Of a stretch of DNA of 64,000 nucleotides, positions 1,915 to 50,954 are shown piece after piece (positions within the stretch are counted from its first letter, which is position 1; each line of letters opens with the position of its first letter). The position numbers and the translations under genes were made by a program. Source of the DNA: Achromobacter seleniivolatilans (GTDB lineage: Bacteria; Pseudomonadota; Gammaproteobacteria; Burkholderiales; Burkholderiaceae_B); contig NZ_CP132976.1 of NCBI RefSeq assembly GCF_030864005.1, forward strand, positions 6,510,001-6,574,000, in the 5' to 3' direction. The notes below the pieces were generated by a model. It searched no databases and was not told where the DNA came from. It saw only the letters and a list, made by a program, of their open reading frames with translations.

Positions 1915-1919
1915 TCATC

Positions 1920-12400: not shown

Positions 12401-12403
12401 TAG

Positions 12404-12520: not shown

Positions 12521-12569
12521 GGACATGCAGGCCGGAACCCGCCGGCCAAAGCAGTAGCGGATTATTCAT

Positions 12570-15125: not shown

Positions 15126-16331
15126 CTAACGCTCACGCAATGCTTCACGTGCCTTGTTGAACGGTTTGAGCAGGTAATCCAGTACTGTTTTCTCTCCCGT
15201 ATGGATATCGACGGTAGCGATCATGCCCGGCGAAATAGGGAAGTCCTTGCCAGCCTTGTTTTTCAGACGGTCGCTATCAGTGCGGATGTAGACGCGATAG
15301 TAATAAACGTCGTGCCGGACTTCATCCTGGATGGTATTGGGGGAGATAAGCGTTACCTTGCCTGGCAGGCCGCCATAAATGGCGTAGTCGTAAGCGGTGA
15401 TCTTAACCATGGCGTCCTGCCCTGGATGAATGAAGGCGATGTCGCGGGGCGACAGACGCGCCTCGATGAGCAGTTGCTCATCAAGCGGCACGATTGCCAT
15501 CAGCTTGCCATCCGGCGGAAGGATGCCGCCCACGGTGGTCACTGAAATATCGTTCACCACGCCACGCACCGGCGACACAATGGTCAGGCGTGTCAGCGCG
15601 TCGGTTCGGCCACGTGTGACCGAGCGCTGTGCCTCGATTTCGGCGTTGGCGCGGGCCAGATCTTCGCCCGCTTTGACCAGGTATTGGGTGCGTGTATCGG
15701 CGGCCTTGGTCTGTAGTTCAGCTATCTGGCGCTTCAGCCTTAGCACCTCGACATTGCTGGCCGCGCCGCGCACTACCAGCGGTTCCGTCAAGGCCAGCTC
15801 ACGGCTCACCAGGGCCTGGCTTCGCGCGATGCCTTCCAGACTGCTTTTCAGGCTATCTAAACGCGAATAGTAGAGCGCTGTCTCGCTACGTACCAGACCG
15901 GGTTCAGCCAGTACCTCGGTCGGGAACGTCAGTGGAGTACCGTTGACTTCAGCGGATAGTCTTACGGCGGTTGCCTGCGCGGCGCGCATGCGCGAGGCAC
16001 TTTCTTGGACCATGGCCTCGGTACGGGTCGGGTCCAATTCCGCCAACACCTGTCCGGCGTTGATGATGTCCCCTTCCTTGACCAGTAAGTGCGCCAGAAT
16101 CCCGCCTTCGAGCGACTGGATGATCTGCTCTTTGGAAGAGGGCACCACCTTGCCCGTACCGGTGGAGACTTCGACCAGTTTGAAATACCAGGCCCAGATC
16201 AGCAAGCTAAGTAGCAGCGCCGCAATCAGCCAGATCACAAGCGCCGCTTTAGGCAACGGCGTATCGCCCGGAGAGCCGCTATAGAACCGCATATCCAGTC
16301 TGCCTGACGAGGGTTGGCCCACATCACTCAT
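15126..16331 (-). CDS. HlyD/LapC-type periplasmic adaptor of type I secretion
   Basis: The 401-residue membrane-fusion protein links the inner-membrane ABC exporter to the outer-membrane TolC-type channel. A single anchor segment (ALVIWLIAALLLSLLIWAWYF) lies near residues 30-50. Then come a lipoyl-like half (GKVVPSSKEQIIQSLEGGIL), a coiled-coil region near 130-240 and the beta-barrel end (SPVRGVVNDISVTTVGGIL). The start overlaps the exporter stop by 4 bp. LapC of the LapA/LapF adhesin system is the closest functional model. Confidence 0.93.
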   Translation of the reverse strand: MSDVGQPSSGRLDMRFYSGSPGDTPLPKAALVIWLIAALLLSLLIWAWYFKLVEVSTGTGKVVPSSKEQIIQSLEGGILAHLLVKEGDIINAGQVLAELDPTRTEAMVQESASRMRAAQATAVRLSAEVNGTPLTFPTEVLAEPGLVRSETALYYSRLDSLKSSLEGIARSQALVSRELALTEPLVVRGAASNVEVLRLKRQIAELQTKAADTRTQYLVKAGEDLARANAEIEAQRSVTRGRTDALTRLTIVSPVRGVVNDISVTTVGGILPPDGKLMAIVPLDEQLLIEARLSPRDIAFIHPGQDAMVKITAYDYAIYGGLPGKVTLISPNTIQDEVRHDVYYYRVYIRTDSDRLKNKAGKDFPISPGMIATVDIHTGEKTVLDYLLKPFNKAREALRER

Positions 16332-20175: not shown

Positions 20176-22580
20176 CTAGTGGAGCACCAACTGGTGATTC
20201 GCCAGCAATGTCGCCAGATCAGTGTGTACGTTATTCAGTGTCAACAGCGCCGTAGGCGTGTAGGTGCTGCCAGTCCCGTCCCTGTCGATACTTATCACCG
20301 TATTGTTTCCCGAAGTCGAGGCCGATAGATAATTAGCGACGGTATCGCCGGAGTTGATAGTAGCCACGCCGTTGATGAGTTTGGCTTCGCCGCTGGCGTT
20401 AGGGGTAAAGCCCATCAGCAACCCGTTCAAGTTGATTTGATCAGCACCCGTAGTGGAGGCAAAGGCGCCCACTTTGAAGCCGTTGACCACATCCGCGCCC
20501 GTGCCATTGCCTCCCGTCGCACTGCTCGCGTTCAGCAGGTTATAAACCAGCGTGTCATGGCCCCCATTGATCAGATTGAAGGTATTGGTGCCGCCTCCGC
20601 TCTGGAACAGGTTGCTGCCTGCATTGCTATCCGTAAATGTGTTGATACCGGCGTCGCCAATAACCCCCTGAATATTATGGAAGGTGGCGGTGTTGTAGCC
20701 GGTGTTTTGCGCCGCGCTGTTGTTCAGGTTGATGTTCAGCGTGGTAGTCCCGGCGGCGCTGTAGTCGACGATGTTCAGTCCGCCGCTGCTGCTCCAGACC
20801 GCTGCGCCGCTGCTATCGGTGCCGGTGCCGCCCGCACCCTCATACACACTGGTGCCCGTCTGCGCCATGAAGGTGTCGTTGTATCCCGTACCGAGTAGGC
20901 TGCTGCCGCCGCCAGCGGCTCCGATATAGGCGTTGACATCGCTGGCACCGCTGGTGCCGGTAGCGGCGGTCAGTACATAGGCATGATCTGCGGCGCCGGG
21001 GGTCAGGTGCGACCAGGTGCTGTTCAGGTTGATGCTGTTGGTGGCGCCCACACCGTTCTCTCCTGCGGTGGCGCTGCTGACGCCGCCCACATTCTGGGAG
21101 ACGCCATTGACGTTGTTCAGCAGCACGGCACTGTAGGTATGAGTGGCATTCAAACCGTAGAAATCTACGATACCGGTGCTGTTGTTGGTGCCTGTACCTG
21201 ACTGCGGGTTGATGATGTCTGCAGCTACCACCAGGCCCGTCGTGTTATCCACCAGTTGGACCGTATTGCCGAAGTAAACGTTGATGCCGTTGGAATCCAA
21301 GATCCGCAGATGCAAACTGGTACCCGCCGCCACAGTGTTGGGGTTGACCACGGTGGCGGTGGCGCCGTTGGCGTAGAAGTACACCAAGTCCTGTGCCCCG
21401 TTCCAATTCAGGTCGGCGGTGACCGCGCCAGTGACGCCGGCCGTGCTGACGGTTGCCAGGGCGCTGGTGCTGAACAGGCCTCCGCCATTGTTGGTGTACA
21501 ACTCGATCGGGCCGGTGCTGGTGCTGGCAGGCAGCTGGATGATGTCCAGCTTGCCGTCGGCGTTCCAGTCCACCGCCAAGCTACTGCCGCTGTTCTCGCT
21601 CAGGGTGGAAACCAGGTAGGTGGTCGCGTAGGCGCCGGTCGTGGCGCTGACCAGAGTGCCGCCGTTGTTGTACAGAATCCGCGGGATGGTGGACGCCGTC
21701 ACCGTACCCGTGGCGTTGGTCTGACCGGCAGGCAGGAACAGGCTCATGTAGCCATTGCCACCGAAGTTGCCCCAGGTCATGGCACTGGCCGGTTGCTGGG
21801 TTTGGCCGGCGGCGCCGCCGTTTTCGTAGAACACGTTGTCCAGCACCTGGGTGCTGTTGAGCACGTTGTTGCCGTTGTTGCTGACGATCACCAAGCGGTA
21901 AGCGTTGCTGTCGGTGGCGGTCTTGGCGGCGCTGGTGTAGTTGCTGCCGTTGGTGCCGTGGTAGGCCAGGTCCACCGTGCCGTTGTTGCTGATGTCCACC
22001 GCCGACACTTCCTCATAGGCCGTGGCGTTGTTGATGTTGGTGGGTACGGGAGAACCTGTGTTGGTGTAGACGTAGTTGACGTCTTTGATCATGCCGGCCA
22101 GGCTGCCGTTGGTATTGACTACCAGCTGCGTGTTGTAGCCGCCCCCGCTGCTGTTGGCCGCGTTCGGAAAGGTGGAACCGTAGCTGATGCCGACGTAGCC
22201 GTTGCCTGTGTTGCTAAAGGCCGCCACACCGCTGTTGGACGCCGACACGTTGGCGCTGGTATTGCCTGTGCCACCGAGGTAGGTGCTGGTGTAGGCGGCG
22301 CCGTTGAAGGTCCAGGTGATCTGGCCGGCGGCATAGTTCTGGTTTTCGCCGAAGAGGCTCATATAACCGCTGCGGTTGTAGTCGATGAACGTAGCGGCAG
22401 TGGTGGATTGGCCAGACACGGCGATCAGACTGGTGGAGTAGTTGCCCAACGTGGCGCTGTTGCTGCCGGTGCTGTTGAATATGGTGTCATTCGACAGGAA
22501 CTGCCAGCTGCCGTTGGTCCCCAAGGTAATGGCGGTGCCGGTGGCGCTGCCGCTGGTGCCGCTGGCATTGAAGGTGACGA
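20176..22580 (-). repeat. Adhesin module 6: FG-GAP plus terminal secretion-target domain
   Basis: The module begins TFNASGTSGSATG and holds the FG-GAP motifs DYNRSGYMSLFGEN, DISNNGTVDLAYHG and DWNADGKLDIIQLP. The closing domain is the real C-terminal type I target. At about 2.4 kb it is shorter than the others because the trailing Ig-like domain is absent. Confidence 0.85.
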
Positions 22581-25500
22581 CTGGCGCGGCAGTGATAGTC
22601 AGTTGATTGCTGGTTTGGTTTTGCATCAGCACCGCGCCACTGCTGCTCAGTACTTGAGCCACCACGTTGTACGTGCCGGCAGCGAGGGTGCCCGCTTGCA
22701 CCGACCAAGTATTGTTCAGCGCATCCACCTCTACGGCGCCGGTGCTGGAGCTGTAGGTGACCCCATTGATGATTACCCGCAGAGTCTCGCCCGATACCAG
22801 ACCATCCACCAAGGTACCTGTGACCGTCGGCGTGGTATCCGTGGTGGAGACCGCATTCACATAGATCGCCGGGGTGCCGTTGATCACGATCTGCCCGTTG
22901 GCTAGCAGGGTAGAGAGGTTGGTTTGTACTCCGTTGAGGGTGGCCAGCACCGTGGAACTGTAGGCGCTGCCGGTGCCATCGCGGTCGATGCTTAGTACCG
23001 TGTTGCCGCCGGCGATGCTGGTGGACAGATAGTTACCGATGGTGTTGCCGCTGTTGATGGTGGCCACGCCATTGATGTACAACGCCTCGCCCGCTGCGTT
23101 CGGAGTGAAGCCCAGCAGCAGGTTGTTCAGGCTGATCACATCGGCACTGGCGTTGCTGTTGACCGAACCCACCGAGAAGCTATTGATGACATCGGCGGAG
23201 CCGTTGCCACCCGTGGCGTTGCTGGCGTTTTGCAGGGCGAAGACCACCGTATCGCCGCCATGGTTCAGGTTGAAGGTGTCCGCTCCGCCGCGTCCCATAA
23301 ACAGGTTGCCGCCGGCGCTGCTGTCGGTGAAGACGTTGTTGCCGCTGCTGCCGTAAATGCCTTGGATATTTTGGAAGGTAGCCGTGTTGTAGCCGGTGTT
23401 CTGCGCCGCAATCAGGCTCAGGTTAACCGTCAGTGCGGTATTTCCCGCGGCGGAGTAATCGACGATGTTCATGCCACCGGTACTGCTCCACACCGATGCG
23501 CCGCTGCTGTCGATACTGGTGCCGCCCGCGCCGTTGTAAACGCTGGTGCCGCTCTGGGCATAGAAGGTGTCGTTATAGCCGGTGCCCACCAGCGGCCCGC
23601 CGCCACCGGCGGCGCCGGTGTAAGCATTGACCGGGGTTGCGCCGCTCGTGCCCAGCGCCGCGGTCAGCACATAGGCGTGGTTGGCCGCCCCCGGCGCCAG
23701 GTTGCTCCAGGCGCTGTTGAAGTTCACCGCTTGCACCGCACCGAGTCCGCCGGCCCCGGCGGTGGTGCTGGTGACCCCGCCGACGTTGGACAGCACGCCA
23801 TTGATGGTGTTGAGCAGCACGGCGCTATAGGTGTGGTTGGGGTCCAGACCGTAGAAGTCCACGATGCCGGTGCTGTTGTTGGTGCCCAGGCCGTTCTGCG
23901 GGTTGATGATGTCCGCCGCCACCACCAGGCCGGTGGTGTTGTCGATCAATTGCACCGTGTTGCCGAAGTAGCTGTTGATGCCGCCCGGATCAAGGATGCG
24001 CAGATGCAGGCTGGTCCCCGGCGCGACCGCATTGGGGTTCGCGATGGTGTTGGCGCTGCCGTTGGCGTTGAAGTAGATCAGATCCTGCGCCCCGTTCCAA
24101 TTCAGGTCGGCAAGCACCGCACCGGTTACCCCTGCGGTGCTGATGGTCGTCAGAGCGCTGGTGCTGAAGTTGCCGCCGCCCTGGTTGGTGTACAGCTGGA
24201 TCGGACCGGTGCTGGTGCTGTTGGGCAACTGGATGATGTCCAGCTTGCCATCGGCATTCCAATCCACCGCCAGCGCCGAGCCACCGGCGCCATTGAGGCT
24301 GGTGGTGAGGTAGGTGGTGGCGTAGGCGCCGATGGTTGAGTTCACCAGCGTGCCGCCGTTGTTGTAGAGGATCTGCGGTGTGGTGCTGGCTGCCACCGTG
24401 CCGTTGGATGCGGTCTGCCCGGCGGTCAGGAACAGGCTCATGTAGCCGTTGCCGCCGAAGTTGCCCCAGGCCATGCCGGTATCCGCTTGCTGGGTCTGGC
24501 CGGTGGCGCCGCCGTTTTCGTAGAACACGTTGTCCAGCACCTGGGTGCTGTTGAGCACGTTGTTGCCGTTGTTGCTGACGATCACCAGACGGTAGGCGTT
24601 GCTGTCGGTGGCGGTCTTGGCGGCGCTGGTGTAGTTGCTGCCGTTGGTGCCGTGGTAGGCCAGGTCCACCGTGCCGTTGTTGCTGATGTCCACCACCGAC
24701 ACTTCTTCATAGGGTTGGGCGTTATTGACATTGGTCGGGATGGGCGAGCCGGCGTTGGTATAAACGTAGTTCACGTTCTTGATCATGCCGGCCAGGCTGC
24801 CGTTGGTATTGACCACCAACTGCGAGTTGTAGCCGCCACCGTTTTGAGCGTCATTCGGCCCGGTATCGCCGTAGATAATCCCGACATAGCCGTTGCCGGT
24901 ATTTCCAAAAGCCGCCACGCCAGAGTTACCCACCTGGGTATTGGCACTGGTATTGCCGCTGCCATTGACGTAGGTGCTGGTGTAGGCGCTGCCGTTGAAG
25001 GTCCAGGCTACCTGGCCAGGGGTGGAGGTGCCGTTCTCGCCGAAGATGCTCATATAACCGCTGCGATTGAAGTCGATAAACGTAGCGCTGGCCGTGGACT
25101 GGCCCGAGACATAAAGCGGGGTGACAGAGAACGAACCCTGAGTGGCGTCGCTGTTGGCGGTGCTGTTGAAAAGCGCGTCATTGGCCAAAAACTGCCAGTC
25201 ACCGTTGGCTCCCAGGGTAATCGCGGTGTCGGTGGCGGTGGAGGGCGTAACGACGTTGATACTGATACTGGCGGGAATGACCGGCACAGCGTTGATGGTC
25301 AACTCGTTGCTGCTCTGATCACGAACCAGCACGGTGCCGCTGCTGCTCAGTACTTGCGCCACCACACTGTAAGTACCGGCGCCCAGTGCGTTGGCGATCG
25401 GCACTTGCAATGACCAGGTGTTGTTCAGCGGGTCTACCGCTACCGCGCCGGTGCTGGAGCTGTAGGTCACGCCGTTGATGATCACCTGCATGGTTTCACC

Positions 25501-43500: not shown

Positions 43501-46500
43501 CCAAGTGGTGCCGCCGTCCGCGCTGATCTGCACGATCTGCTGGTTCAACAACGGCGCGCTCAGGGTGCCCTGGTACAGCAGCGTATGGTCACTGGTAATG
43601 AAATCACTGGCGCTGGCGCCGGTATCGCGGGTGATGGACGAGATCACAATGCTTTCATTGGCGGCCGGTGTGGTGGTATCGATCACCACGCTCTGGCTGG
43701 CGGTCTGGCCCACACTCCCCGCGACGTTGACCACCCGTGCGACGACGGTATAGGTGCCGTCGGCCAGTACATTGGCCGTATTGTCGTAACTCCAGGTGGT
43801 GCCGCTGACCGTGGTGTTCTGCCAGGTGCTGCCACCGTCCAGGCTGATCTGCACGCTATCGCCAGCGGCCAGAGCGGTACCAACGGTGCCTTGAAATATC
43901 AGGCTGGGGGCGTTGGTGATGAAATCCGCAGCGCTGATCCCAGTGTCTGGACTGATAGAACTGATGGTCACGGTTTCACTGGCGCTTGGCGGCACGGTGT
44001 TGATCAGCAGGGTTTGGCTGGCGGTCTGCCCCACATCCCCCGCGACGTTGATCACCCGCGCGGCAACGCTATAGGTGCCATCGGGCAAGGCATGGGCGCT
44101 GTTGTCATAGCTCCAGGTGGTGCCGCTGACCGTGGCGCTCTGCCAGGTGCTGCCGCCGTCCAGGCTGATCTGCACGCTGTCGCCATTGGCCAGTGCCGTG
44201 CCCACGGCGCCGTGGAACACCAGGTTGGAAGCGCTGGTGATGAAGTCGCTGCTGCTGATGCCGGTGTCGGGCGTGATGCCGCTGATGGTTACGGTTTCGC
44301 TGGCGCTTGGCGCCACCGTGTTGATCACCACAGTCTGGCTGGCGCTCTGGCCGACATCGCCAGCCAGGTTGATCACCCGCGCCGCAACACTATAGGTGCC
44401 ATCGGCCAGGGCGTTGGCGCTGTTGTCGTAGCTCCAGCTGGTGCCGCTGACCGTGGTGTTCAGCCAGGTGCTGCCACCGTCTAGACTTATCTGCACACTG
44501 TCGCCGGCAGCCAACAAGGTTCCGACGGTGCCATGGAATACCAAATTAGGCGCATTGGTAATGAAGTCGGTGCTGCTGATCCCGCTGTCCAGGGTGATGG
44601 CGGTAATGGCCACGGTTTCGCTGGCGCTTGGCGCCTGCGTGTTGATCACCACCGTTTGATTCGCGATTTGGCCCACATTCCCGGCAACATTGACCACGCG
44701 CGCTGCGACGCTATAGGTGCCATTGGCCAAGGTGTTGGCAGTGTTGTCGTAGCTCCAGGTGGCGCCGCTGACCGTGGTGTTTTGCCAGGTGCTGCCGCCG
44801 TCCAGGCTGATCTGCACACTGTCGCCCGAGGCCAGGGCGGTGCCCATCGTGCCGTGGAACACCAGATGCTGCGCATTGGTGATGAAATCGCTGCTGCTGG
44901 CGCCACTGTCCGGGGTGATCGCCGTAATGGCCACGGTCTCGCTGGCACTCGGCGCCTGGGTATTGATCGCGACCGTCTGGCTGGCGCTTTGTCCTACATT
45001 CCCGGCGATATCGATCACCCGCGCAGCCACGTTATAGGTGCCATCGCTCAGAGGGGTGCCGCTGTTGTCATAGCTCCAGGCGGTGCCGCTGACCGTCGCG
45101 GTCCTCCAGGTGCTGCCGCCATCAAGGCTGACCTGCACACTGTTGCCAGCGGCCAAGGCGGTGCTCAGCGTGCCATGGAACACCAGGCTGGGATCGTTGG
45201 TGACAAAGTCGCTGCTGCTGGCGCCGCTGTCCTGCGTGATGAAGGTAATGGCAATGGTTTCGCTGGCGTTGGGAGCGGTGGTGTCGATCACCAAAGTCCG
45301 GCTGGCAATCTGGCCAATATTGCCTGCCAGGTTGATCACCCGCGCCTCAACGCTATAGGTGCCATTGGCCAGGGGGTTGGCGCTGTTGTCGTAGCTCCAG
45401 CTGGTGCCGCTGGCCGTGGCGTTGAGCCAGGTGCTGCCACCGTCTAGACTTATCTGTACGCTGTCACCAGCGGCCAGGGCGGTGCCCAGGGTGCCCTGGA
45501 ATACCAGGTTGGCATCGTTGGTGATGAAGTCGCTGCTGCTGGCGCCGGTGTCCTGGGTGATGGACGTAATGGCAATGGTTTCGCTGGCGCTCGGCGCCGC
45601 GGTGTTGATCACCACGGTCTGGCTGGCACTCTGACCGATACCGCCTGCCAGGTTGATCACCCTGGCTTGAACGGAGTAGCTGCCGTCGGCGAGCGCATTG
45701 GCGCTGTTGTCATAACTCCAGCTGGTGCCGCTGACGGTGGTGTTGAGCCAGCTCGTGCCGCCGTCCAGGCTGATTTGCACGGTTTCGCCACTGGCCAGTG
45801 CGCTGCCCAGGGCGCCGTGGAACACCAGGCTTGAATCGTTGGTGACAAAGTCGCTGCTGCTGATGCCGCCGTCCTGCGTGATGGACGTAATGGCGATGGT
45901 TTCGCTGGCGCTGGGGGGCACGGTGTTGATCACCAGCGCCTGGCTGGCGGTCTGGCCCACATTGCCCGCTATGTTCACCACGCGAGCCTGCACGGTGTAA
46001 CTGCCATCGGTCAAGGTGCTGACGCTGTTGTCGTAGCTCCAGCTGGTGCCGCTGACCGTGGCGTTGAGCCAGGTCATGCCGCCGTCTATGCTGATCTGCA
46101 CGCCATCGCCAGCGCCCAAGGTGCTGCCCAGCGTGCCGTGGAACACCAGGTTGGCATCGTTGGTGATGAAATCGCTGCTGCTGGCGCCACTGTCCTGTGT
46201 GATGGATGTAATGGCAATGGTTTCACTGGCGCTGGGCGCCTGGATGTTGATCGTCACGGATTGGCTGGCGCTCTGGCCGGCAACCCCTGCCAGGTTGATC
46301 ACCCTGGCTTGAACGATGTGGCTGCCGTTGCTCAGTGCATTGGCGCTATTGTCATAACTCCAGTCCGTGCCGCTGACCGTGGCATTGAGCCAGGTGCTGC
46401 CGCCATTTACGCTGATTTGTACGCTATCCCCTGGTGCCAGCGGTATGCCTAGCGTGCCGTGGAACACTAGGTTCGGATCGCTGGTGATGAAGTCGTTGCC

Positions 46501-49500
46501 GCTGACCCCGGTATCCAGGTTGATGGCGGTAATGGCAATGGTTTCAGTGGCGCTGGGCGCAAGAGTATTGACCACCATGGGCTGGCTGGCGGTCTGGCCG
46601 ATATTGCCAGCCACGTTGATCACCCGGGCGTTGATGGTGTAGTTGCCATCGGCGAGCGCGCTGGCGCTGTTGTCATAGCTCCATGTGCTGCCGCTGACGG
46701 CAGCGTTCAGCCAGGTGGCGCCGCCATCGAGACTGATTTGCACGGTCTCTCCACTGGCCAGTGCGCTGCCTAAGGTGCCGTGGAACACCAAGCTTGAATC
46801 GTTGGTGACAAAGTCGCTGCTGCTGGCGCCCGTGTCCTGGGTGATGGACGTAATGGCAATGGTTTCAGTGGCGCTGGGCGCCACGGTGTTCACCACGACG
46901 AGCTGGCTGGCGCCAAGCCCCACATTGCCGGCGGTGTCGACCACCCGTGCCTCGACGTTATAGCTGCCGCTGGCCAGAGTATTGGCCGAATTGTCATAAC
47001 TCCAGGTGAGGCCGCTTACAGAGGCATTGAGCCAGGTGCTGCCGCCGTCCAGGCTGATCTGCACCCTGTCGCCGCTGGCCAGCGTGGCGCCCAGGGTGCC
47101 GTGCAGCACCAGATTCGGATCGTTGGTAATGAAGTCGCTGCCGCTCGCGCCGTTGTCGTGGGTGATGGACGAAATGGCAACGGTTTCAGTGGCGCTAGGC
47201 GCCACGGTGTTGACCACGACGAGCCGGCTGGCGGTCTCGCCGATTGCGCCGGCCTCGGAGATGATCCGTGCCTGAACGGCATAGCTGCCGCTGGCCAATG
47301 GGCCGGCGCTGTTGTCATAGCTCCAGCTTGTGCCGCTGACGCTGGCATTGAGCCAGGTCGTGCCGCCGTCCAGGCTGATCTGCACGCTCTCGCCGCTGCC
47401 CAGTGCACTGCCTAAAGTGCCGTGGAACACCAGGCTAGGATCGTTGGTGACAAAGTCGCTGCTGCTGACGCCGGTGTCCTGGGTAATGGACGTAATGGCA
47501 ATGGTTTCACTGGCGCTGGGCACAGTGGTGTTGATCACCACCAATTGGCTGCTTGCAGCACTGGCATTGCCCGCCGCGTTCACCACCCGCGCCTCAAAGC
47601 TGTAGCTGCCTGCGGCCAGGGTGTTGGCGCTGTTGTCGTACTGATAGGTCGAGCCGCTGACCAGGGCCGCATTGTGCCAACTGCTGCCGCCATCCACGGA
47701 GATCTGCACCGTGTCGCCCAGGTTGATGTTCAAGGTGCCGGTCAGGGTTGCCGTCACCAGCAGATGCTGATCGCTGGTAATGAAGTCGCTGCTGTTGACC
47801 CCCATATCCTGGGTGATCGCACTGACGGCCGCGGTGGCGGCTGGCACCAGGGTGTTGGTATAGGGGTGGGAGGTCGCGGTACTGGTGTAGCCTTCTGGCG
47901 TCGTCGCCGTGGCCACGATGCTGCCGCTGAGCTGCGCTGCGGCGGAGCTGGTGCTGTAGCCGCCATTGGCATTGGCCACGGTAGAGCTGGTGCTGCCATC
48001 GGGATAGGTGATGAGCACGGTGCTGCCCGGCTGCGCGGTGCCACTGACGGTCAACGTGCCGTTGCTGTTGGCGACCACGGTCTCCGTGGGCGCCAGTGGT
48101 GGTGTGGTGTTGTGGTAACTGCTGGTGGCCGCTGGGCTGCTATAGCCTTGAACTGTCGTGGCGGTCACCGACACCGAACCGTCGTATTGCACGGTCGGCG
48201 AGGTGATGCTGTAAGTGCCGTTGGCGCTGGCGACGACCGTGCCGGTGGTGCCATCGGGATAGGTCACGGCCACGGTGCTGCCAGCCTGCGCCGTACCGCT
48301 GACCGTCAGCGTGCCATCCGGGTTGGTATGCGTCGTTTCGGTCGGTGTGGCTGGTGGCGTGGTGTTGGTATAGGGCGTGCTGGCGGTGCTGCTGCTCAGG
48401 CCGCCGGCCTCGGTGGCGCTGGCGGTGACCTGCCCATTGTTCTGCGGGGTCGGCGAGGTGATGCTGTAGGTGCCGTTGGCGGCCGTCACCGCCGTGCCGG
48501 TGGTGCCATCGGGATAGGTCACGGTCACGGTGCTGCCGGGCTGCGCCGTGCCACTCACCGTAATGGTGCCGTTGGGGTTGGTGGTGAGCGTTTCGGTCGG
48601 TGCGGCGGGGGGCGTGGTGTCCGTGTACGGGGTACTCGCGGTCGTGCTGGTATAGCCTTGCGGCGTGGTCGCGGTGGCGCTTACCGGGCCGCTGCTCTGC
48701 ACGGTCGGCGACGTGACGCTGTAGGTGCCGTTGGCACCGGCAACGACACTTCCGGTGGTGCCATCGGGATAGGTGACCGTCACCGTGCTGCCGGGCCGCG
48801 CCGTGCCACTGACGGTGATTGTGCCGTTGGGGTTGGCGCTTACGGTTTCGGTGGGCGCCAGTGGCGCCGTGGTGTTGTGATACACCGTGGAGGCTGGTGT
48901 GCTGACATTGGTCGCCTCGTCGGTCGCCGTTACGGTGACCGTACCGTCATTCTGCTCCGCACTCGACGTCGTGCTGTAGGCGCCGCTGGCACTAGCCACC
49001 GTCGTACTAGTCGAGCCATCAGGATAGGTAACCTTTATGGTGCTGCCCGGTTGAGCCGTCCCCGCTACCGTCACGGTGCCATTCGGGTTGGTGCTGATTG
49101 ATTCAGTGGGCGATGCGGGGGGCGTTGTATCAACCAATACGGTCTGTGTAGCGCTGGGGCCGGCATTACCTGCGGCGTCTACCACGCGTACGACCACCTG
49201 GTAGGTACCGTCCAGTAAGGGGTCGAAGCTCCAGTTGGTGCCGGTGACCGTTGCTGTATTCCAGGAAACGCCGCCATCCAGGCTGATCTGCACCGTATCA
49301 CCTGCCGACAATGGCGCCGTTAACGTGCCGAAGAATGTCGGATTATTGTTATTGGTGATTAGCTCGGTGCTGTTCGCGCCTGTTTGGTGGGTAATGGAGA
49401 TACTGGCGACCACGACAGTCGGCGCGGTGGTGTCAATGGTGACGGCCTGTGTGCCCGCAGCATTGGCCACACCGGCTGAATTGATCACGCGGGTGGCAAA

Positions 49501-50262
49501 GTTATAGTGGCCCTCCGCAAGCGCGTCGGCGCTGTTGTCGAACGCATAGGTATTGCCGCTTACCAGCGCTGCGTTATGCCAGGTTGCGCCGCCATCTACG
49601 GAGATCTGAACGGTCTCACCCGGTTCCAGCAACCCGGTCAAGGTGGCACTGACGACTTGGTGTTGCACATTGGAGATAAAGCCGTTGCCGCTAGCCAATG
49701 CCCCTTTGGATATGGCGCTGATGACGGCAATCGCGGTGGGTCCAGCCGGCGCGGCGGGTGATATGGAACCACCCGAGCTTTCACTGCCGCTGCTACTGCC
49801 ACCACCACCACCGCCGCTGCTGCTTGCGGCAATGCCCGCCAGTCCCAACCCCAATGCGCCGAGAACCCAGGGCAAAGCGCCGCCCATGCCGCCGCCTTCG
49901 GCCAGTAGCGGATCAATCGCATCGATACTGTCGTAGGTGGGCACCGATGCGGCGGCGTCGGTCGCGCTTGCCTCTGCCGCATCCGGCGGCTGTAGCAACC
50001 ACAGCGACTCATCCGGGTCCTGCAAGACCAGGCTGTTCTTCTGGCCTTGGTGGTGCAGGTAATACCCATGCACCCGCACGACTTCGCCGGATACGGTCGT
50101 GATAACGAGCGTATCTCCGTCGCGAGTCATGGACTTGATTTGGGCTTTGGGTATGGGGACCTGTACGACCGATGGCGATGACAAGGTCAGGTCAGGTTGA
50201 GATGTACTGGACTGAGAATGTGTTTTCTTGTCCACGATACTGATAGAAATAGGGTTGCCCAT
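20176..50262 (-). CDS. Giant Bap/LapF-like type I-secreted repeat adhesin (10,028 aa)
   Basis: One uninterrupted frame encodes a surface or biofilm adhesin of roughly 1 MDa. The ATG at 50262 is preceded by GAGG about 8 bases upstream. Residues 1-110 resemble the BapA/LapF prefix domain. Residues about 125-165 are a hydrophobic segment (GALPWVLGALGLGLAGIAAS) plus a Gly/Ser run, the likely outer-membrane retention plug. About 39 Ig-like repeats (pattern ITxDTGxSSSDFIT ... VQISLDGGxTW ... ARVxDxAGNxG) follow, interrupted near the N-terminus by five short repeats. Then come six FG-GAP-rich modules, each with a secretion-target-like domain. The last ends the protein (NTFNLINGGHDTLVYNLLNA; IDRDGTGS; LLANHQLVLH). 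No TAAG-type LapG cleavage site stands out and lapD/lapG are not in the window. The export genes lie directly downstream. Confidence 0.95.
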   Translation of the reverse strand: MGNPISISIVDKKTHSQSSTSQPDLTLSSPSVVQVPIPKAQIKSMTRDGDTLVITTVSGEVVRVHGYYLHHQGQKNSLVLQDPDESLWLLQPPDAAEASATDAAASVPTYDSIDAIDPLLAEGGGMGGALPWVLGALGLGLAGIAASSSGGGGGGSSSGSESSGGSISPAAPAGPTAIAVISAISKGALASGNGFISNVQHQVVSATLTGLLEPGETVQISVDGGATWHNAALVSGNTYAFDNSADALAEGHYNFATRVINSAGVANAAGTQAVTIDTTAPTVVVASISITHQTGANSTELITNNNNPTFFGTLTAPLSAGDTVQISLDGGVSWNTATVTGTNWSFDPLLDGTYQVVVRVVDAAGNAGPSATQTVLVDTTPPASPTESISTNPNGTVTVAGTAQPGSTIKVTYPDGSTSTTVASASGAYSTTSSAEQNDGTVTVTATDEATNVSTPASTVYHNTTAPLAPTETVSANPNGTITVSGTARPGSTVTVTYPDGTTGSVVAGANGTYSVTSPTVQSSGPVSATATTPQGYTSTTASTPYTDTTPPAAPTETLTTNPNGTITVSGTAQPGSTVTVTYPDGTTGTAVTAANGTYSITSPTPQNNGQVTASATEAGGLSSSTASTPYTNTTPPATPTETTHTNPDGTLTVSGTAQAGSTVAVTYPDGTTGTVVASANGTYSITSPTVQYDGSVSVTATTVQGYSSPAATSSYHNTTPPLAPTETVVANSNGTLTVSGTAQPGSTVLITYPDGSTSSTVANANGGYSTSSAAAQLSGSIVATATTPEGYTSTATSHPYTNTLVPAATAAVSAITQDMGVNSSDFITSDQHLLVTATLTGTLNINLGDTVQISVDGGSSWHNAALVSGSTYQYDNSANTLAAGSYSFEARVVNAAGNASAASSQLVVINTTVPSASETIAITSITQDTGVSSSDFVTNDPSLVFHGTLGSALGSGESVQISLDGGTTWLNASVSGTSWSYDNSAGPLASGSYAVQARIISEAGAIGETASRLVVVNTVAPSATETVAISSITHDNGASGSDFITNDPNLVLHGTLGATLASGDRVQISLDGGSTWLNASVSGLTWSYDNSANTLASGSYNVEARVVDTAGNVGLGASQLVVVNTVAPSATETIAITSITQDTGASSSDFVTNDSSLVFHGTLGSALASGETVQISLDGGATWLNAAVSGSTWSYDNSASALADGNYTINARVINVAGNIGQTASQPMVVNTLAPSATETIAITAINLDTGVSGNDFITSDPNLVFHGTLGIPLAPGDSVQISVNGGSTWLNATVSGTDWSYDNSANALSNGSHIVQARVINLAGVAGQSASQSVTINIQAPSASETIAITSITQDSGASSSDFITNDANLVFHGTLGSTLGAGDGVQISIDGGMTWLNATVSGTSWSYDNSVSTLTDGSYTVQARVVNIAGNVGQTASQALVINTVPPSASETIAITSITQDGGISSSDFVTNDSSLVFHGALGSALASGETVQISLDGGTSWLNTTVSGTSWSYDNSANALADGSYSVQARVINLAGGIGQSASQTVVINTAAPSASETIAITSITQDTGASSSDFITNDANLVFQGTLGTALAAGDSVQISLDGGSTWLNATASGTSWSYDNSANPLANGTYSVEARVINLAGNIGQIASRTLVIDTTAPNASETIAITFITQDSGASSSDFVTNDPSLVFHGTLSTALAAGNSVQVSLDGGSTWRTATVSGTAWSYDNSGTPLSDGTYNVAARVIDIAGNVGQSASQTVAINTQAPSASETVAITAITPDSGASSSDFITNAQHLVFHGTMGTALASGDSVQISLDGGSTWQNTTVSGATWSYDNTANTLANGTYSVAARVVNVAGNVGQIANQTVVINTQAPSASETVAITAITLDSGISSTDFITNAPNLVFHGTVGTLLAAGDSVQISLDGGSTWLNTTVSGTSWSYDNSANALADGTYSVAARVINLAGDVGQSASQTVVINTVAPSASETVTISGITPDTGISSSDFITSASNLVFHGAVGTALANGDSVQISLDGGSTWQSATVSGTTWSYDNSAHALPDGTYSVAARVINVAGDVGQTASQTLLINTVPPSASETVTISSISPDTGISAADFITNAPSLIFQGTVGTALAAGDSVQISLDGGSTWQNTTVSGTTWSYDNTANVLADGTYTVVARVVNVAGSVGQTASQSVVIDTTTPAANESIVISSITRDTGASASDFITSDHTLLYQGTLSAPLLNQQIVQISADGGTTWQTANVTGTSWSYDGTGASLPDGSYTVQARVADLAGNIGQSTSQVVVIDSTPPSASVTVTVISITPDTGLSNSDFITSATHLVFQGTVGAALASGDGVQISLDGGSTWHNAAVSGANWTYDNSANTLADGSYNVLAQVIDAAGNVGSSASQVVVVSTTPPSSSETVSLVSITRDSGLIGTDFITNDHSLLFNGTLGAPLIGGEAVQLSTDGGSTWQTASVSGTAWTLDNTANSLPDGSYDVQVRVINVAGDVGATTAQTVVIDSVAPSAAPTISAISADTGSSAGDFITSAQHLVVSATLSGTLAANDTVQISLDGSNTWQTATLVSGNLYQLDNSANTLAAGTYTFATRVTDVAGNTSAVSSQTVVIDTAPPAAGNSVAITSYTDTVGPLVGNFGNGSSTNASAPLLNGTVSGLNSGDLVQVYQGSTLLGNANVSGGSWTYQLSSNPDGAYTYRALITDIAGNPGTVSSDFGFTIQTVAPVVTAALTAISPDTGVSSSDFLTDTNHLILSGTLSAALPAGDSVQVSLNGGATLMAATVSGTTWTLDLSGATLADGSYPAQVWVQDGAGNQSPISSQTFIINSVAPTQSVAITSITQDTGTSSNDFITSDQTLVFHGSLGAALAANGSVQISLDGGSTWHAASVSGTSWSYDNSASALAAGSYNVEARVVDTAGNIGNLASQTLIINTTAPTTGNSVAISNYADNIAAQVGNFASGTSTNDTTALLNGSVTGLIAGDIVQVFQGSTLLGNATVSGNTWTYQLGALAEGSYSFDAVITNVAGIQGTTSSLFTLTVDTSAPTESISITAISPDTGSSASDFITNGNHLLFSGTLGSTLAIGEYVQVSLDNGGTWQTASVSGNTWSYDNSAATMADGSYEVLARVVDAAGNPGTSASQLVVINTVAPVESIAIVSMTPDTGISSSDYVTSAQNLVFHGSLSTALGAGESVQFSLDGGATWRNATVSGSSWTYDNSANTLASGNYTVQARVINVAGDSGTVASQLVVIDTATPAGNPITLTSITPDTGASASDFITGSNTLVFNGALTSPLAANESVQISLDGGATWLNATVSGTTWSYNNTANVMADGSYSVQARIIDGAGNIGNGTSHAIVIATVAPTASISISSISQDTGSSATDYITNDNTLVFRGNLSGALGASQSVQVSLDGGSTWQTASVSGTAWTYDNSANVLANGSYSVQARVTDVAGNIGQSAVQTVVINTQAPTESIAITSITPDTGSSSSDFITSGQNLVLHGSLGSALAANQSVQISLDGGNTWQSASVSGNSWAYDNSANTLLAGNYNVAARVIDTAGNTGQLATQVVQIATAAPSATASVASISVDSGSSASDFVTNDQTLQVYATVNGTLASGNSVQISVDGGTTWHAATLVSGNTYAYDNSASALAAGNYSFEARVVDAAGNASAAGTQAVVIATSAPANTVAITAISPDTGVSASDFITNANQLIFSGTLATALPAGAGVQISLDAGATWHAANVSGVTWSYNNTANVLADGTYTVQARLIDLAGNTTTEVSQAVGINTQIPSATAAISGISQDTGTSGSDFITSDQSLVISATVTGSVASNQFVQISLDGGSTWHAAALVSGNTYAYDNSANAVAAGTYTFEARVADSAGNASSATSQAVQVITTAPTTGNSVAITSYTDDIFPQSGIFTSGTSTNDSAPLLNGTVTGLKPGDIVQIFQGATLLGNAAVSGSTWTYQLGTLAQGDYTFDAVITDVAGLQGTASSNFSLTVKTSPPSVSETISIAAISPDTGVSGTDFITGSSHLVFTGVLGTALAAGDIAQISLDGGNTWLNSVVSGTAWSYDNSANTLADGVYNIKARVVDAAGNQGNTGNQALVVNTTAPTQSITIASVTPDTGVSNSDYLTTSNTLIFNGNLGSALASNQYVQISLDGGLTWRNASATGSTWNYNNTANVMSDGSYAVQARVIDTAGNIGLSTSQTVVVDSTAPSQIITIALVTPDSGVSSSDFITNVNTLQFQGALSAPLGSGESVQFSLNGGVSWSIATVSGTTWSYNNSASVLADGSYNLKVEVIDQAGNIGHTANQVLIVNTAIPNESIAITSITPDTGSSASDFITASNNLVFNGTLSSTLNSQQSVQISLDGGSTWQTAATTGTAWTFNNSANTLANGTYTVQARVVDVAGNIGSNVSQMVVIYNGLPTATAAISSISPDTGNSGTDFITGAAQLTITATVTGTLGVNDYVQISLDGGNTWRTATQTSGNLYALDNTASTLAQGSYTFEARVINLQGSFSTAGTQTVVIATTPPAVTAISVQTEVTDTAQGLLTGTGSTTNNASNNDFVTRDPSVIINGNYTGTLLASQFLQISSDGGITWANTTVNTSTHTWIYIDPTTRTSNVTYQLRAVDVAGNVAAGVTSQLLTVQTVAPLQSLLAPTLLTANDTGVVGDEITTATSLTFNSINSLPGTPGNTIALINDVNNNGIYAQGIDPVLASTTVAADGSWSISVAGLSLGNYNLAFLQLDPAGNRSLLSGVTQISVVAANNSITAAATWGNGFAGNLTSGASLTLGNNGLWTFSQDVSGGTNEAIYTSTGLTSYNAINLANSGQQSTGASFADIKRSGFAALVSEGNNIAQQSYWTTTNGVSYTQGTLTGNSLAYGGVAAFDKTGGGYLGFAFGNSNNNTLAFVTNTTGTLTWMNGTATAGTGRPSGTGAIATINSYAEVSAVDLNNTGVVDVIEHTNGSGNFALTTLMNNQATTNTFSSVNSIAGVFNTPVAGNSTTPISMTWADFNNDGYVDLYLNNGRNAANTADSNSGRIYWNNGAGAFGTTSAATGTTTGGTATYFANSMQGGASLAIDWNHDGQMDAIEFPAFGVTGSPTLYMNQGNGYFATGVALTGSSTYNGVTGAMAVDYNWDGAMDIVMHQSAAASVVISNANPTAYGTSLHLRILDPNGINDYYGNIVQLFDQTGKLVQSQILNPQSGLFTNNGTGIVDFYGLNPTSTYTAVLLRSIGGIASNVGGLPAVGSLTVQNVNSTWTGLTPGAATNAYVLAAEAGTATATGSFTGTGYNDTFFATLGTNTYNGSGGLSGASYGTPAWIASGGMNVLSFALAGSTALNINLNTTTAQNTGYNTVTLNNIQGIIGNAGNDTFTSSTTANVNNQFQGGGGNNVFNLTGGGGHTTLLFPLLNSADATGGNGTNTVNGFVLGNVSSTANADVLDLSGLLSGYNGTAYLYYDQTSAKYQLDVASQSLNNYLQVSNNGANTTVSVDLTGSGNFHTLATLNGVATDLPTLLLNNQLLLSSSNTQGVITVTSVTTVNTLPVISGTVPFALANGEYMLVVLNGVTYSSANGAVVVDPLNHTWSLQVPIVNALAAATYTVGAGVFTSSGTLMADSHSSGQLIVSAVPSTSFRASGISNSATDTAITLQNGAWVIVANDTVYASNGVSNATLGNFTSTSIAVASQSTTSATFIDYNRSGYMSLFGENQNYAAGQVAWTYNGSAYANTYVTGSGNTSSNVSASNSGVTAFENTGNGYVGLSYGSTFPNAANSSGGGYNTQLVVNTNGTIAGMIKDVNYVSTNTGSPAPTNINNATAYEEVSVVDISNNGTVDLAYHGTNGSNYTSAAKTATDSNAYRLVIVSNNGNNVLNSTQVLDNVFYENGGATGQAQQPATGLAWGNFGGNGYMSLFLTAGQISSNGTVAATTTPQIIYNNGGTLVSSTVGPYSTTYLSTTLNGAGSSALAVDWDADGKLDVIQLPNSTSTGPIQLYTNLGGGNFSTGTLATISTTGVTGAVAADLNWNGAQDLVYFYANGTNATVMNPNAVAYGTSLHLRIVDPGGINIYFGNTVQLIDNSTGLVVAADIINPQSGLGTNNSTGIVDFYGLDPNHTYSAVLLNTINGVLSNVGGVTSTTAGAGGVGAVQAVNFNSTWSNLAPGAADHAYVLTATLGTSGSNLVNAYTGAAGGGSPLTGTGYNDTFYAETGTSVYNGAGGASIDNTGASVWSPNGGMNIVDYSAAGSTALTINLSLSTAQNTGYNTATFQNIQGIYGSNGANVLTDGTGDDQFMGRGGADTFNLTHGGHDSVIYALQNASNATGGNGSSDVINGFVAGSYNSNANADQIVLRNLLLGFTPNAAGEALYINGVATINSGTAIGSFLSTSITGGNTVISIDRDGAGSAYGSTALLTLNGVQTNLATLLANGQIVINAAPAVYVNAESTTNTTPIVSGSLALGLVGGETMQVIINGVTYSSSTGAVSVDPLNNTWSVQVAAGSPLAVGTYNVVAQVLSSSGAVLVQDQSNNQLSVTAPPSGSFAATGSSNSATDTAITLGANGDWQILANDTVFTSTANSSRTQGAFSTTSIAVSGQSSASATFIDFNRSGYMSLFGQNGNASPGQVTWTFNGSAYTTTYVGGSGNTSANVSAASGGVVAFENTGNGYVGIVYGDTGPNDSQNGGGYNTQLVVNTNGTIAGMIKSANYVSSNVGSPAPTNTNNAQPYEEVSAVDFTNSGTVGLAYHGTNGSNYTSAAKTATDSNAYRLVLVSNSGAGTFNSTQVLDNVFYENGGASGLTQQPATGMAWGDFSGNGYMSLFLTAGQTSAYGAVIATSTPRILYNNGGTLVQSTLGAYATTYLTTTLNSVGGSALAVDWDADGKLDIIQLPNSTSTGPVQLYTNLGGGNFNTSALATISTAGVTGAVVADLNWNGTQDLVYFNANGSTATVMNPNTVAAGTSLHLRILDPGGINSYFGNTVQLIDNSTGLVVAADIINPQNGLGTNNSTGIVDFYGLNPNHTYSAVLLNSIGGGSANVGGVTATTTGAGGVGDVQQVNFNSTWANLTPGAANHAYVLTAALGTSGATPVNAYTGAAGGGGPLVGTGYNDTFYAQTGTSVYNGAGGTVTDSSGASVWTSTSGMNIVDYSAAGSTALTINLSLSTAQNTGYNTATFQNIQGIYGSSGANVLTDGSGGDQFMGRGGADTFNLTHGGHDSVIYALQNASNATGGNGSSDVINGFTLGSVNSNANADQIVLSNLLLGFTPNAAGEALYINGVATINSGNTIGSFLSTSITGGNTVLSIDRDGSGSVYSSTTLVTLNSVQTNLTTLLANGQILLNPAPSVSVNAESTTDNTPIISGTLVGGLGTGTTLQVIVNGVTYSSSTGAVAVDLQNSTWSVHLPIADTLATGTYSVTAQVVNTAGTVLVQDQTSGELVVNALPVTNFNAVGASNTSYDVAITLSTTGGWQILANDTVFSSNASSSATLGNFSTTAIGNGQTTSSATFIDFDRSGYMSIFGENGNAAPGQVTWTFNGSAYTTTVVNGSGNTSANVSAVNGGVAAFENTGNGYVGISYGSSFPNNASNYGGYNTQLVVNTNGTIAGMIKDINYVYTNTGSPVPTNINNATAYEEVSVVDISNNGTVDLAYHGTNGSNYTSAAKTATDSNAYRLVIVSNNANNVLNSTQVLDNVFYENGGATGQTQQPGSAMVWGDFGGTGYMSLFLIAGQTDASGAVTASTSPRILYNNGGTIVSSTFGAYASTFLSSSLNESYGSSVAVDWNADGKLDIIQMPNGSISGPIQLYTNLGGGHFTTSSLGTAALGVSGLVTADLNWSGAQDLVYFNNNGGVNTVINANPVAYGTSLHLRIVDPGGINIYFGNTVQLIDNSTGLVVAADIINPQSGIGVNNSTGIVDFYGLNPNHTYSAVLLNTINGVLSNVGGVTSTTAGVGGLGAVQAVNFNSTWSNLAPGAANHAYVLTATLGTASASAVNAYSGAAGGGGPLVGTGYNDTFYAETGTSVYYGAGGASIDNTGASVWSSTGGMNIVDYSAAGSTALTINLSLSTAQNTGYNTATFQNIQGIYGSNGANVLTDGTGDDQFMGRGGADTFNLTHGGHDSVIYALQNASNATGGNGSSDVINGFVAGSYNSNANADQIVLRNLLLGFTPNAAGEALYINGVATINSGDTIGNYLSTSITGGNTVISIDRDGAGSAYGSTALLTLNGVQTNLATLLANGQIVINAAPAVYVNAATTTNTTPIVSGSLALGLVGGETMQVIINGVTYSSSTGAVAVDPLNNTWSLQVPIANALGAGTYSVVAQVLSSSGTVLVRDQSSNELTINAVPVIPASISINVVTPSTATDTAITLGANGDWQFLANDALFNSTANSDATQGSFSVTPLYVSGQSTASATFIDFNRSGYMSIFGENGTSTPGQVAWTFNGSAYTSTYVNGSGNTSANTQVGNSGVAAFGNTGNGYVGIIYGDTGPNDAQNGGGYNSQLVVNTNGSLAGMIKNVNYVYTNAGSPIPTNVNNAQPYEEVSVVDISNNGTVDLAYHGTNGSNYTSAAKTATDSNAYRLVIVSNNGNNVLNSTQVLDNVFYENGGATGQTQQADTGMAWGNFGGNGYMSLFLTAGQTASNGTVAASTTPQILYNNGGTLVNSTIGAYATTYLTTSLNGAGGSALAVDWNADGKLDIIQLPNSTSTGPIQLYTNQGGGNFSTSALTTISTAGVTGAVLADLNWNGAQDLIYFNANGSANTIANPNAVAPGTSLHLRILDPGGINSYFGNTVQLIDNTTGLVVAADIINPQNGLGTNNSTGIVDFYGLDPNHTYSAVLLNTINGVLSNVGGVTSTTAGAGGLGAVQAVNFNSAWSNLAPGAANHAYVLTAALGTSGATPVNAYTGAAGGGGPLVGTGYNDTFYAQSGTSVYNGAGGTSIDSSGASVWSSTGGMNIVDYSAAGNTALTVNLSLIAAQNTGYNTATFQNIQGIYGSSGNNVFTDSSAGGNLFMGRGGADTFNLNHGGDTVVFALQNASNATGGNGSADVINSFSVGSVNSNASADVISLNNLLLGFTPNAAGEALYINGVATINSGNTIGNYLSTSIAGGNTVLSIDRDGTGSAYSSTVLATLNGVQTNLSTLLANGQIVINGTPAIYVNAVSTTDTTPTVTGTLVDGLVSGETLRVIINGVTYSSSTGAVEVDALNNTWSVQAGTLAAGTYNVVAQVLSSSGAVLMQNQTSNQLTITAAPVVTFNASGTSGSATGTAITLGTNGSWQFLSNDTIFNSTGSNSATLGNYSTSLIAVSGQSTTAATFIDYNRSGYMSLFGENQNYAAGQITWTFNGAAYTSTYLGGTGNTSANVSASNSGVAAFSNTGNGYVGISYGSTFPNAANSSGGGYNTQLVVNTNGSLAGMIKDVNYVYTNTGSPVPTNINNATAYEEVSAVDISNNGTVDLAYHGTNGSNYTSAAKTATDSNAYRLVIVSNNGNNVLNSTQVLDNVFYENGGAAGQTQQPASAMTWGNFGGNGYMSLFLPAGQTNATGTVTASTIPRILYNNGGTLVSATTGAYATTYLVSTLSENSGSSLAVDWNADGKLDIIQLPASTSTGPIELYTNNGGGLFSTSALATVSTAGVTGAVTADLNWNGAQDLVYFYANGATATVVNPNTVAAGTSLHLRILDSNGINVYFGNTVQLVDNTTGLVVAADIINPQSGTGTNNSTGIVDFYGLNATHTYSAVLLNNVNGVSQNVGGVSSATAGENGVGATNSINLNSTWSHLTPGAADHAYVLTAATGTSGASDVNAYIGAAGGGSSLLGTGYNDTFMAQTGTSVYEGAGGTGTDSSGAAVWSSSGGLNIVDYSAAGTTTLNINLNNSAAQNTGYNTATFHNIQGVIGDAGINTFTDSNAGSNLFQSGGGTNTFNLINGGHDTLVYNLLNASSATGGNGTGADVVNGFKVGAFASTTGADQINLNGLLMGFTPNASGEAKLINGVATINSGDTVANYLSASTSGNNTVISIDRDGTGSTYTPTALLTLNNVHTDLATLLANHQLVLH
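22580..25272 (-). repeat. Adhesin module 5 (about 2.69 kb)
   Basis: The start is ISINVVTPSTATDTAITL. FG-GAP segments are followed by an internal copy of the secretion-target domain (NTFNL... equivalent: DTFNLNHGGDTVVFALQNA) and a closing Ig-like unit. Long stretches of DNA are identical to modules 2-4, for example the block coding FYENGGATGQTQQ. Confidence 0.85.
25272..27972 (-). repeat. Adhesin module 4 (about 2.70 kb)
   Basis: The start is NFNAVGASNTSYDVAITL, in the same order as the other modules. The target-like domain reads DTFNLTHGGHDSVIYALQNA and ends IDRDGAGSAYGS. The closing Ig-like unit carries VNAATTTNTTPIVSG. Confidence 0.85.
27972..30675 (-). repeat. Adhesin module 3 (about 2.70 kb)
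   Basis: The start is SFAATGSSNSATDTAITL. The target-like domain DTFNLTHGGHDSVIYALQNA is identical in protein sequence to those of modules 2 and 4. The closing unit carries VNAESTTDNTPIISG. Confidence 0.85.
30675..33374 (-). repeat. Adhesin module 2 (about 2.70 kb)
   Basis: The start is SFRASGISNSATDTAITL. It has the full order of FG-GAP repeats, target-like domain and closing Ig-like unit (VNAESTTNTTPIVSG). Its last 600 bases are nearly identical to those at the end of module 4. Confidence 0.85.
33374..35975 (-). repeat. Adhesin module 1, divergent (about 2.60 kb)
   Basis: The start is SITAAATWGNGFAG. FG-GAP motifs include DFNNDGYVDLYLNNG and DWNHDGQMDAIEFP. The target-like domain is NVFNLTGGGGHTTLLFPLLN. 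It shares architecture with modules 2-6 but much less sequence, so it is the oldest or least homogenised copy. Confidence 0.8.
35975..47850 (-). repeat. Main Ig-like repeat array of the adhesin (about 37 units)
   Basis: Units of about 100-107 residues follow the pattern SETIAITSITQDTGASSSDF, then LVFHGTLGSAL, VQISLDGGSTW, WSYDNSA and a closing VINTxAPS. This resembles bacterial Ig-like repeats of Bap-type adhesins. Three units differ (beginning NSVAITSYTDTV, NSVAISNYADNI and NSVAITSYTDDI) and share GTSTNDSAPLLNG-type cores. The last unit before the modules (LLTANDTGVVGDEITT) is also divergent. Confidence 0.85.
47850..49110 (-). repeat. Five short (about 84-aa) Big_6-like repeats
   Basis: Each unit runs from ET.x.TNPNGTxTVSGTAQPGS through VTYPDGTTG and NGTYSxTSP to Y.NTTPP..PT. 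They differ in length and sequence from the roughly 100-residue repeats on either side, which marks a switch of repeat type near the N-terminus. Confidence 0.85.
49110..49740 (-). repeat. First two Ig-like units of the adhesin
   Basis: Two units of about 100 residues (TAIAVISAISKGALASGNGF and VASISITHQTGANSTELIT) link the N-terminal retention segment to the short-repeat block. They are more divergent than the main array. Confidence 0.75.
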
Positions 50263-50436
50263 TTTCTATACCTCAAGAACTTGACATCCAGGCTGGGGAT
50301 CAGGAAGGCTCAAGTTAGGAAATATGTTATGCGCAAAAAAAAGCAAATGGATTACATCAAAATAAATATTTGTTTTGGGGAACAAAAATAAAAAAATTCA
50401 ACACAGCCATTCGCTCAAACTAATGCTGCGGTATCA

Positions 50437-50478
50437 GATTCCATTTGGGAATCGAATAAAAGATTCCATTTTGGAATC
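50437..50478. promoter_or_regulatory. Two tandem 17-bp palindromic operators
   Basis: GATTCCATTTGGGAATC (50437-50453) and GATTCCATTTTGGAATC (50462-50478) each have perfect GATTCC/GGAATC arms around a 5-bp centre. Their starts are 25 bp apart, and they lie 175-216 bp before the adhesin ATG. Paired identical dyads in an adhesin promoter region suggest binding by a dimeric regulator. The regulator is unknown. Confidence 0.65.
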
Positions 50479-50954
50479 GGATAGAGGATTAATAAGTAAA
50501 CTGGCAGGGTGATAGTCATTTATCCCGTCGGCTACAGGCGGATTATTGTTTGGAGCCTATTAATTATTTTCATCGTCAGGTACTTGCTATATCTGCTTTG
50601 CCTGACAGCCCGGCGCGCAGGCAGCCTCAATCGCTGGCCGATGAGAAAACTAAAGGGCGCGGCTATTCAAACGTTGCATTTTCAAGAAGAGAAGTGCATT
50701 TAAATAAATGCGTGTCCGCGAACTCTCGCAGTCAGGGTCAATATCGCTTGCTGGTGTCGTTGCTTGGTATTAATAGCAATTTCGTATTGGACGCGGCCGC
50801 AATAACTGGGGGCAATCTTAATACCCATGTCTTCGACTAGTTGGTATGCTTCCGAAACGCAAACGAGCTGGCTGTTTAGCGTGGCTGTTTAATGCCGCGC
50901 TTTCCGGATCGTCTTGCAGATTCGCTCAAGCAAGATCGACTTTGAAAACACAGC

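Follow-up and report, generated by a model that had tools for sequence, protein, structure and literature searches.

We analysed a 64,000-nucleotide window of Achromobacter seleniivolatilans (contig NZ_CP132976.1, positions 6,510,001 to 6,574,000), in which one minus-strand gene encodes a giant protein of 10,028 residues. It is probably an adhesin of the BapA-prefix group that is exported by type I secretion, stays tethered to the surface and has a multivalent tip. Proteins of this kind are known, but this one has six heads in series where most relatives have one or two. The last ~5,300 residues consist of six tandem modules (M1 to M6) of ~900 residues each, starting at residue 4719, and each module comprises a CRTAC1-like beta-propeller head and a type I secretion system (T1SS) target domain. 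The earlier note had proposed a T1SS target at the end of the protein, which was found there (TIGR03661, 48.6 bits within the last 1,028 residues; cut-off 17.6), but it overlooked the tandem modules of the tail. The parts of the gene, all on the minus strand, are as follows.

20176-50262, minus: giant adhesin gene, 10,028 residues, single open frame
49867-50247, minus: BapA_N prefix domain, residues 6-132 (PF22783, NF033677)
36304-49737, minus: stalk, residues 176-4653 (Big_13, Big_6, NF033510 Ca_tandemer, repeat hidden Markov model (HMM) and spacing)
33673-36108, minus: module M1, residues 4719-5530, propeller head and T1SS-type C-terminal domain (TIGR03661 22.8 bits)
30982-33669, minus: module M2, residues 5532-6427 (27.1 bits)
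28282-30978, minus: module M3, residues 6429-7327 (26.4 bits)
25588-28278, minus: module M4, residues 7329-8225 (29.6 bits)
22879-25584, minus: module M5, residues 8227-9128 (31.8 bits)
20179-22878, minus: module M6, residues 9129-10028, T1SS target at the true C-terminus (37.2 bits)

The single uninterrupted 30-kb gene claimed in the earlier note was recovered as an exact frame with an ATG start, one stop and no N. At this base composition, 10,028 random codons would contain about 269 stops (log10 P of none = -118), which rules out a chance open frame. The two other forward frames contain 342 and 160 stops, and the GC fraction at codon positions 1, 2 and 3 is 0.52, 0.53 and 0.82. The product has a mass of 1,005.9 kDa (~1.006 MDa), 567 acidic and 120 basic residues and no cysteine. 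The gene is intact, as the earlier note held plausible, and its placement at the extreme upper end of bacterial protein size is fair, but it is not a record: PMC4083281 gives 1.5 MDa for the T1SS adhesin MpAFP, and 8,682 residues for LapA.

The Bap/LapF-like prefix of the earlier note was borne out as one of BapA type (PF22783, E 4.1e-29; NF033677, 62 bits with a cut-off of 35). In the stalk, a custom repeat HMM found 38 immunoglobulin (Ig)-like domains, of which two lie at 176-384 and 36 at 808-4653, the latter mostly spaced 105-110 residues apart. Five 85-residue Big_6/YPDG repeats lie between these groups (YPDG motifs at 413-753), giving ~43 domains in total, and Ca_tandemer repeats were matched in stalk pieces (NCBIfam NF033510). 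At 3.3 nm per domain, as derived from the 53 domains in 175 nm of SiiE (excerpt of PMC6272769), to 4.5 nm per stalk domain (excerpt of PMC7493085), the stalk would be ~140-195 nm long. NCBIfam matches to sulfite dehydrogenase in the stalk were far below cut-off and were put down to Ig-fold cross-matches.

Scanning the protein with HMMs built from its own six modules gave six matches each for the propeller, the domain after it and the T1SS-type domain. Structural alignment with murine CRTAC1 (9etn) showed that the module matches the fold of its propeller and C-terminal domain, although CRTAC1 is eukaryotic, shares 13% identity and lacks the Ig stalk and the T1SS part. A limited literature search found no published description of CRTAC1-like heads in T1SS adhesins. 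An Ig domain stands at the start of each of M2 to M6. Identity to M6 is 71-74% for M2-M5 and 47% for M1. The ratio of nonsynonymous to synonymous substitution (dN/dS) was 0.21-0.36 in the ten pairs among M2-M6, with dS of 0.39-0.92.

Repetitive regions such as this one invite the suspicion of false duplication or misjoined repeats, with a lower true copy number, and M2 and M4 indeed share a 324-bp identical tract with 97-100% identity around it, which is consistent with gene conversion. However, M2-M5 have diverged from M6 by 26-29% at the residue level and dS within M2-M6 is substantial, whereas false duplicates would be near identical. The longest internal exact repeat (324 bp) is below the usual long-read length. 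Furthermore, no frameshift interrupts the 10,028 codons, the genome (6,862,680 bases) is assembled in two contigs, and a metagenomic protein carries four modules by independent expansion. We consider an assembly artefact very improbable.

Export genes and the predicted adhesin

The exporter, adaptor, outer-membrane channel and SapC protein that the earlier note placed downstream on the same strand were confirmed, in the order TolC, ATP-binding cassette (ABC) exporter, HlyD, SapC.

18433-19863, minus: TolC-type outer-membrane channel (TIGR01844, 227.4 bits, cut-off 225.15)
16328-18436, minus: LssB-type (LapB-like) T1SS ABC exporter (TIGR03375, 823 bits, cut-off 693)
15126-16331, minus: HlyD-type periplasmic adaptor (TIGR01843, 327 bits, cut-off 208.65)
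14252-15058, minus: SapC-family protein (PF07277, E 8.6e-64)
14181-14218, minus: terminator-like hairpin downstream of SapC, 16 pairs with a T tail (consensus scan)

The TolC and ABC genes overlap by 4 nt, as do the ABC and HlyD genes. The stop of the giant gene lies 312 nt from TolC, and no minus-strand terminator-like site was listed in this gap. The hairpin downstream of SapC is the longest on the minus strand and, together with its plus-strand twin, has by far the longest stems in the window. Five weaker minus-strand sites fall within genes, and the nine terminator-like sites found in the window are no excess over the 6.5 expected. This arrangement suggests that the giant gene through SapC would form one transcription unit. 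At 50436-50490, ~175-230 bp upstream of the giant gene start, 2.2 copies of a 25-bp repeat unit occur together with a hairpin and are possibly regulatory.

A BapA_N domain, a tandem Ig-like stalk, a C-terminal T1SS target and linked T1SS genes, the features of BapA-prefix T1SS adhesins, are all present. The polypeptide is predicted to leave through the adjacent TolC/ABC/HlyD channel with the C-terminus first and the M6 target leading, while the N-terminal BapA prefix would stay behind as the retention end. The Ig-like domains would then form the stalk and the six serial propellers a multivalent distal tip with putative ligand binding, in which the five internal target domains are most likely folded caps between heads. 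Secretion, tethering, ligand binding and the role of the internal domains are predictions in this scheme.

Salmonella SiiE resembles the giant protein in T1SS export, C-terminal signal and Ig stalk, but has 53 bacterial Ig-like domains, a 60-residue insertion and a mass of 595 kDa, and the excerpt of PMC6272769 mentions no propeller head. MpAFP/MpIBP and LapA likewise combine a stalk, distal ligand-binding domains and T1SS export (excerpts of PMC7493085 and PMC4083281), but their heads are different, MpAFP is larger, and the LapA retention module (NF033682) was not listed for the giant protein at E 1. As a positive control, the second adhesin encoded in the genome gave 127 bits for this module. 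No LapG is linked to the giant gene, and the genome's only Peptidase_C93 match (C1:2650004) lies beside that other adhesin.

Alternatively, the protein might be released, e.g., to become part of the matrix or of an S-layer-like structure, and SapC would be its surface-layer partner. The SapC gene does belong to the same gene run and was seen in none of the 68 related loci, many of which are short stretches. However, the BapA prefix and stalk resemble those of tethered adhesins, and no S-layer domain was listed in the Pfam and NCBIfam scans of the protein, so that we regard release as improbable.

Several points weigh against the tethered, multivalent adhesin. No sigma-70-like promoter was found in the scan upstream of the giant gene, and the ABC match was absent from 32 of the 68 related loci, many on short stretches. 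The score against the N-terminal SiiEA model of NCBI (NF047714) was 27 bits, far from its cut-off of 425. The Pfam signature ASPIC_UnbV was not listed at E 0.1 in 1,000-residue pieces, and the CRTAC1-like label thus rests on the structural alignment. In addition, the five internal target domains still score above cut-off, which speaks against calling them silent, and the M2-M6 heads may be altered or decayed, with one calcium loop of six.

Relatives and history of the modules

Relatives were drawn from the best 120 of 413 matches (490 candidates scored, so rarer forms may be missed), plus 115 further listed proteins. Modules were counted by HMMER with --max and recounted at 60 bits. The giant protein itself was not found among the 120 listed of the 413 matches. 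One module was present in 221 of the 235 listed relatives, and the most in any of them was four. The first 120 comprised 113 proteins with one module, six with two, and one (P0008) with one head and two T1SS domains; the further 115 comprised 108 with one, six with two, and one (P0121) with four. When contigs were searched, a single-module query found no relative and an alignment query found 60 loci. In these loci, from named genomes, the T1SS match was present in 56, and 52 had one module and four had two, although many of their frames run off the stretch and upstream modules may be missed. In the order, 85 of 399 genomes had some match (at most two candidates per genome scored), and only two of the matches listed were near full length, one in this genome and one in genome G339 (a 5,973-residue frame). 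Six modules are therefore the most seen, and tandem expansion is not unique to the giant protein.

The single-module BapA-prefix adhesins of Enterobacter (~6,001 residues), Variovorax, Serratia and E. coli (records named SiiEA by NCBI) share the Ig stalk, one propeller and the T1SS tail, most with BapA_N, and are 37-43% identical to the module; they are 3,186-7,589 residues long and have one module as opposed to six. Giants with two modules occur in Pseudomonas and in Neisseriaceae bacterium TC5R-5 (P0001-P0006 and others). Their first module resembles M1 and the terminal one M2-M6, but their propellers mostly have 4-6 calcium loops (three in the first module of P0006). P0121, an ENA metagenome protein of 4,108 residues, also shows four tandem modules with the terminal type expanded. 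It differs in its independent expansion, its 4-5 calcium loops and the lack of a listed BapA_N, and its start may thus be incomplete.

In a 45-row tree, M1 grouped with the first module of the two-module relative P0006 (98/91), and M2-M6 formed one clade (100/100) with M6 branching first (100/99). A split with 100/100 support put this clade on the side of the terminal modules (27 rows; midpoint root), and single-module proteins occurred on both sides. A 40-row tree repeated the pattern, and in it modules 2-4 of P0121 go back to an expansion of their own, likewise of the terminal type. Judging from these trees, the terminal module multiplied from one copy to the five of M2-M6 in a lineage-specific way. 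The simplest reading is that an ancestral two-module tail had its terminal module expanded at least twice, and the six-module tail would have arisen from such a tail.

Secretion target domains and calcium loops

We considered that the internal T1SS-type domains no longer score as targets, but this was dropped because all six pass the TIGR03661 cut-off when scanned alone; larger pieces holding M2-M4 had listed no match. A short motif near the C-terminus, NHQ, was present in 158 of 171 terminal modules (M6 included; the set is redundant) as opposed to one of 21 internal ones (P0008). M6 has NHQ, M2-M5 have NGQ and M1 has NNQ at this position, and the true C-terminal end of P0121 has NQQ, contrary to the pattern. 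Since the first modules largely form one group, only about two independent changes underlie the contrast, which is no more than suggestive. In P0008 (a Serratia fonticola record of 6,477 residues), one head is followed by two tandem T1SS-type domains, and the internal one keeps NHQ. In Limnobaculum and Leminorella loci (L052, L055, L057 and L059), ~200 residues extend past the T1SS-type domain, which is not terminal.

If the internal domains were functional, they could act as repeated export or folding stations, with the long chain threaded or pulled out stepwise. Their individual scores above 17.6 bits, intact frame and low dN/dS agree with this, as does the suggestion, in the excerpt of PMC12077191, that C-terminal RTX (repeats-in-toxin) domains begin folding during secretion. 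The loss of NHQ from 20 of 21 internal copies, on about two independent changes, and the highest TIGR03661 score in M6 argue against it, and we find such stations unlikely, though not negligibly so, compared with folded caps between the heads. The RTX repeats of the giant protein appear, by their motifs, degenerate: where classical RTX proteins have arrays of GGxGxDxxx nonapeptides, there is one GGxGxD in the whole protein, and PF00353 reached only E 0.0046, below cut-off. A profile search nevertheless hit RTX beta-rolls.

Strict DxDxDGxxD loops number three in M1 and one of six canonical in each of M2-M6, while propellers of relatives mostly have 4-6 (range 2-6 in 39 modules, some truncated; 3-6 in 15 more). 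The integrin-like calcium-blade test (Dx[DN]xDG loops at blade tips) did not class the heads as calcium blades of the type described in the excerpt of PMC3123361. The conserved loop Asp is replaced mostly by Asn, Ser or Gly. Because dN/dS is low, we read the head as changed, not dead. Asp loss specific to the loops was rejected, as the conserved-Asp columns lost were 10 of 18 within the loops and 8 of 18 elsewhere (Fisher p 0.74). The loss is general: 18 of 36 conserved Asp columns were lost versus 32 of 191 others (Fisher p 4e-5). Asp makes up 3.8% of the modules as opposed to 5.8-9.2% in five relatives, and 5.4% of the stalk as opposed to 6.4-10.3% in eight. In the second adhesin encoded in the genome, Asp reaches 11.5% over the C-terminal 390 residues, which also contain seven GGxGxD, indicating that the depletion is not a genome-wide trend.

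Taken jointly, the tail might be a multivalent tip that is calcium-sparing and also carries repeated export stations, a combination that we hold to be quite unlikely. If true, the terminal head would have lost five of six loops and then multiplied along with its secretion domain, the adhesin would fold and bind in low calcium where relatives would not, and several target domains, not one, would draw the chain out stepwise. Loss of calcium ligands in expanded heads contrasts with the view, in the excerpt of PMC7493085, that adhesins of this type owe their extension and folding to calcium.

In T1SS substrates like SiiE, the signal sits at the very C-terminal end, whereas the giant protein has five further copies of this kind of domain in its interior. 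Together with relatives of one, two and four modules, it would allow testing of what makes a T1SS domain a signal. The same series would allow testing of head number against adhesion, and of the export of a 1 MDa chain.

Genomic site and a second adhesin

Among 268 genomes of the family, 13 had a BapA_N match (12 over cut-off), and this genome was the only one of its genus (43 genomes sampled, two <80% complete). The M6 module matched in three of the 268, the two others only via the Ig part (at most three candidates per genome scored). The site was compared in seven of the 42 other genus genomes, with a tRNA gene as its border.

10552-10628, plus: tRNA-Pro (TGG), border of the variable site (tRNA call, synteny)

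The distance from this tRNA to the gene at 51792 is ~41 kb here, as opposed to 4.0, 10.4 and 17.6 kb, occupied by other genes, in those three genus genomes whose 20-kb stretch reached the far side. The comparison indicates that the adhesin cluster is an accessory insertion at a variable site. In the same site, the plus strand at 11619-13367 encodes a protein with a Tlde1 domain (PF10908, which we take to be a family of type VI effectors), followed by one with a CdiI_2 immunity domain. Beside the tRNA-Pro, the minus strand at 10725-11389 has two short frames that overlap each other and are probably insertion sequence remains; one of them encodes an rve_3 integrase core.

The other adhesin of the genome (C1:2635501-2651725; L125, L069) is a 4,090-residue Big_9 frame that contains the LapA retention module. 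It is preceded by an HlyD-like gene and followed by one for a LapG-type protease.
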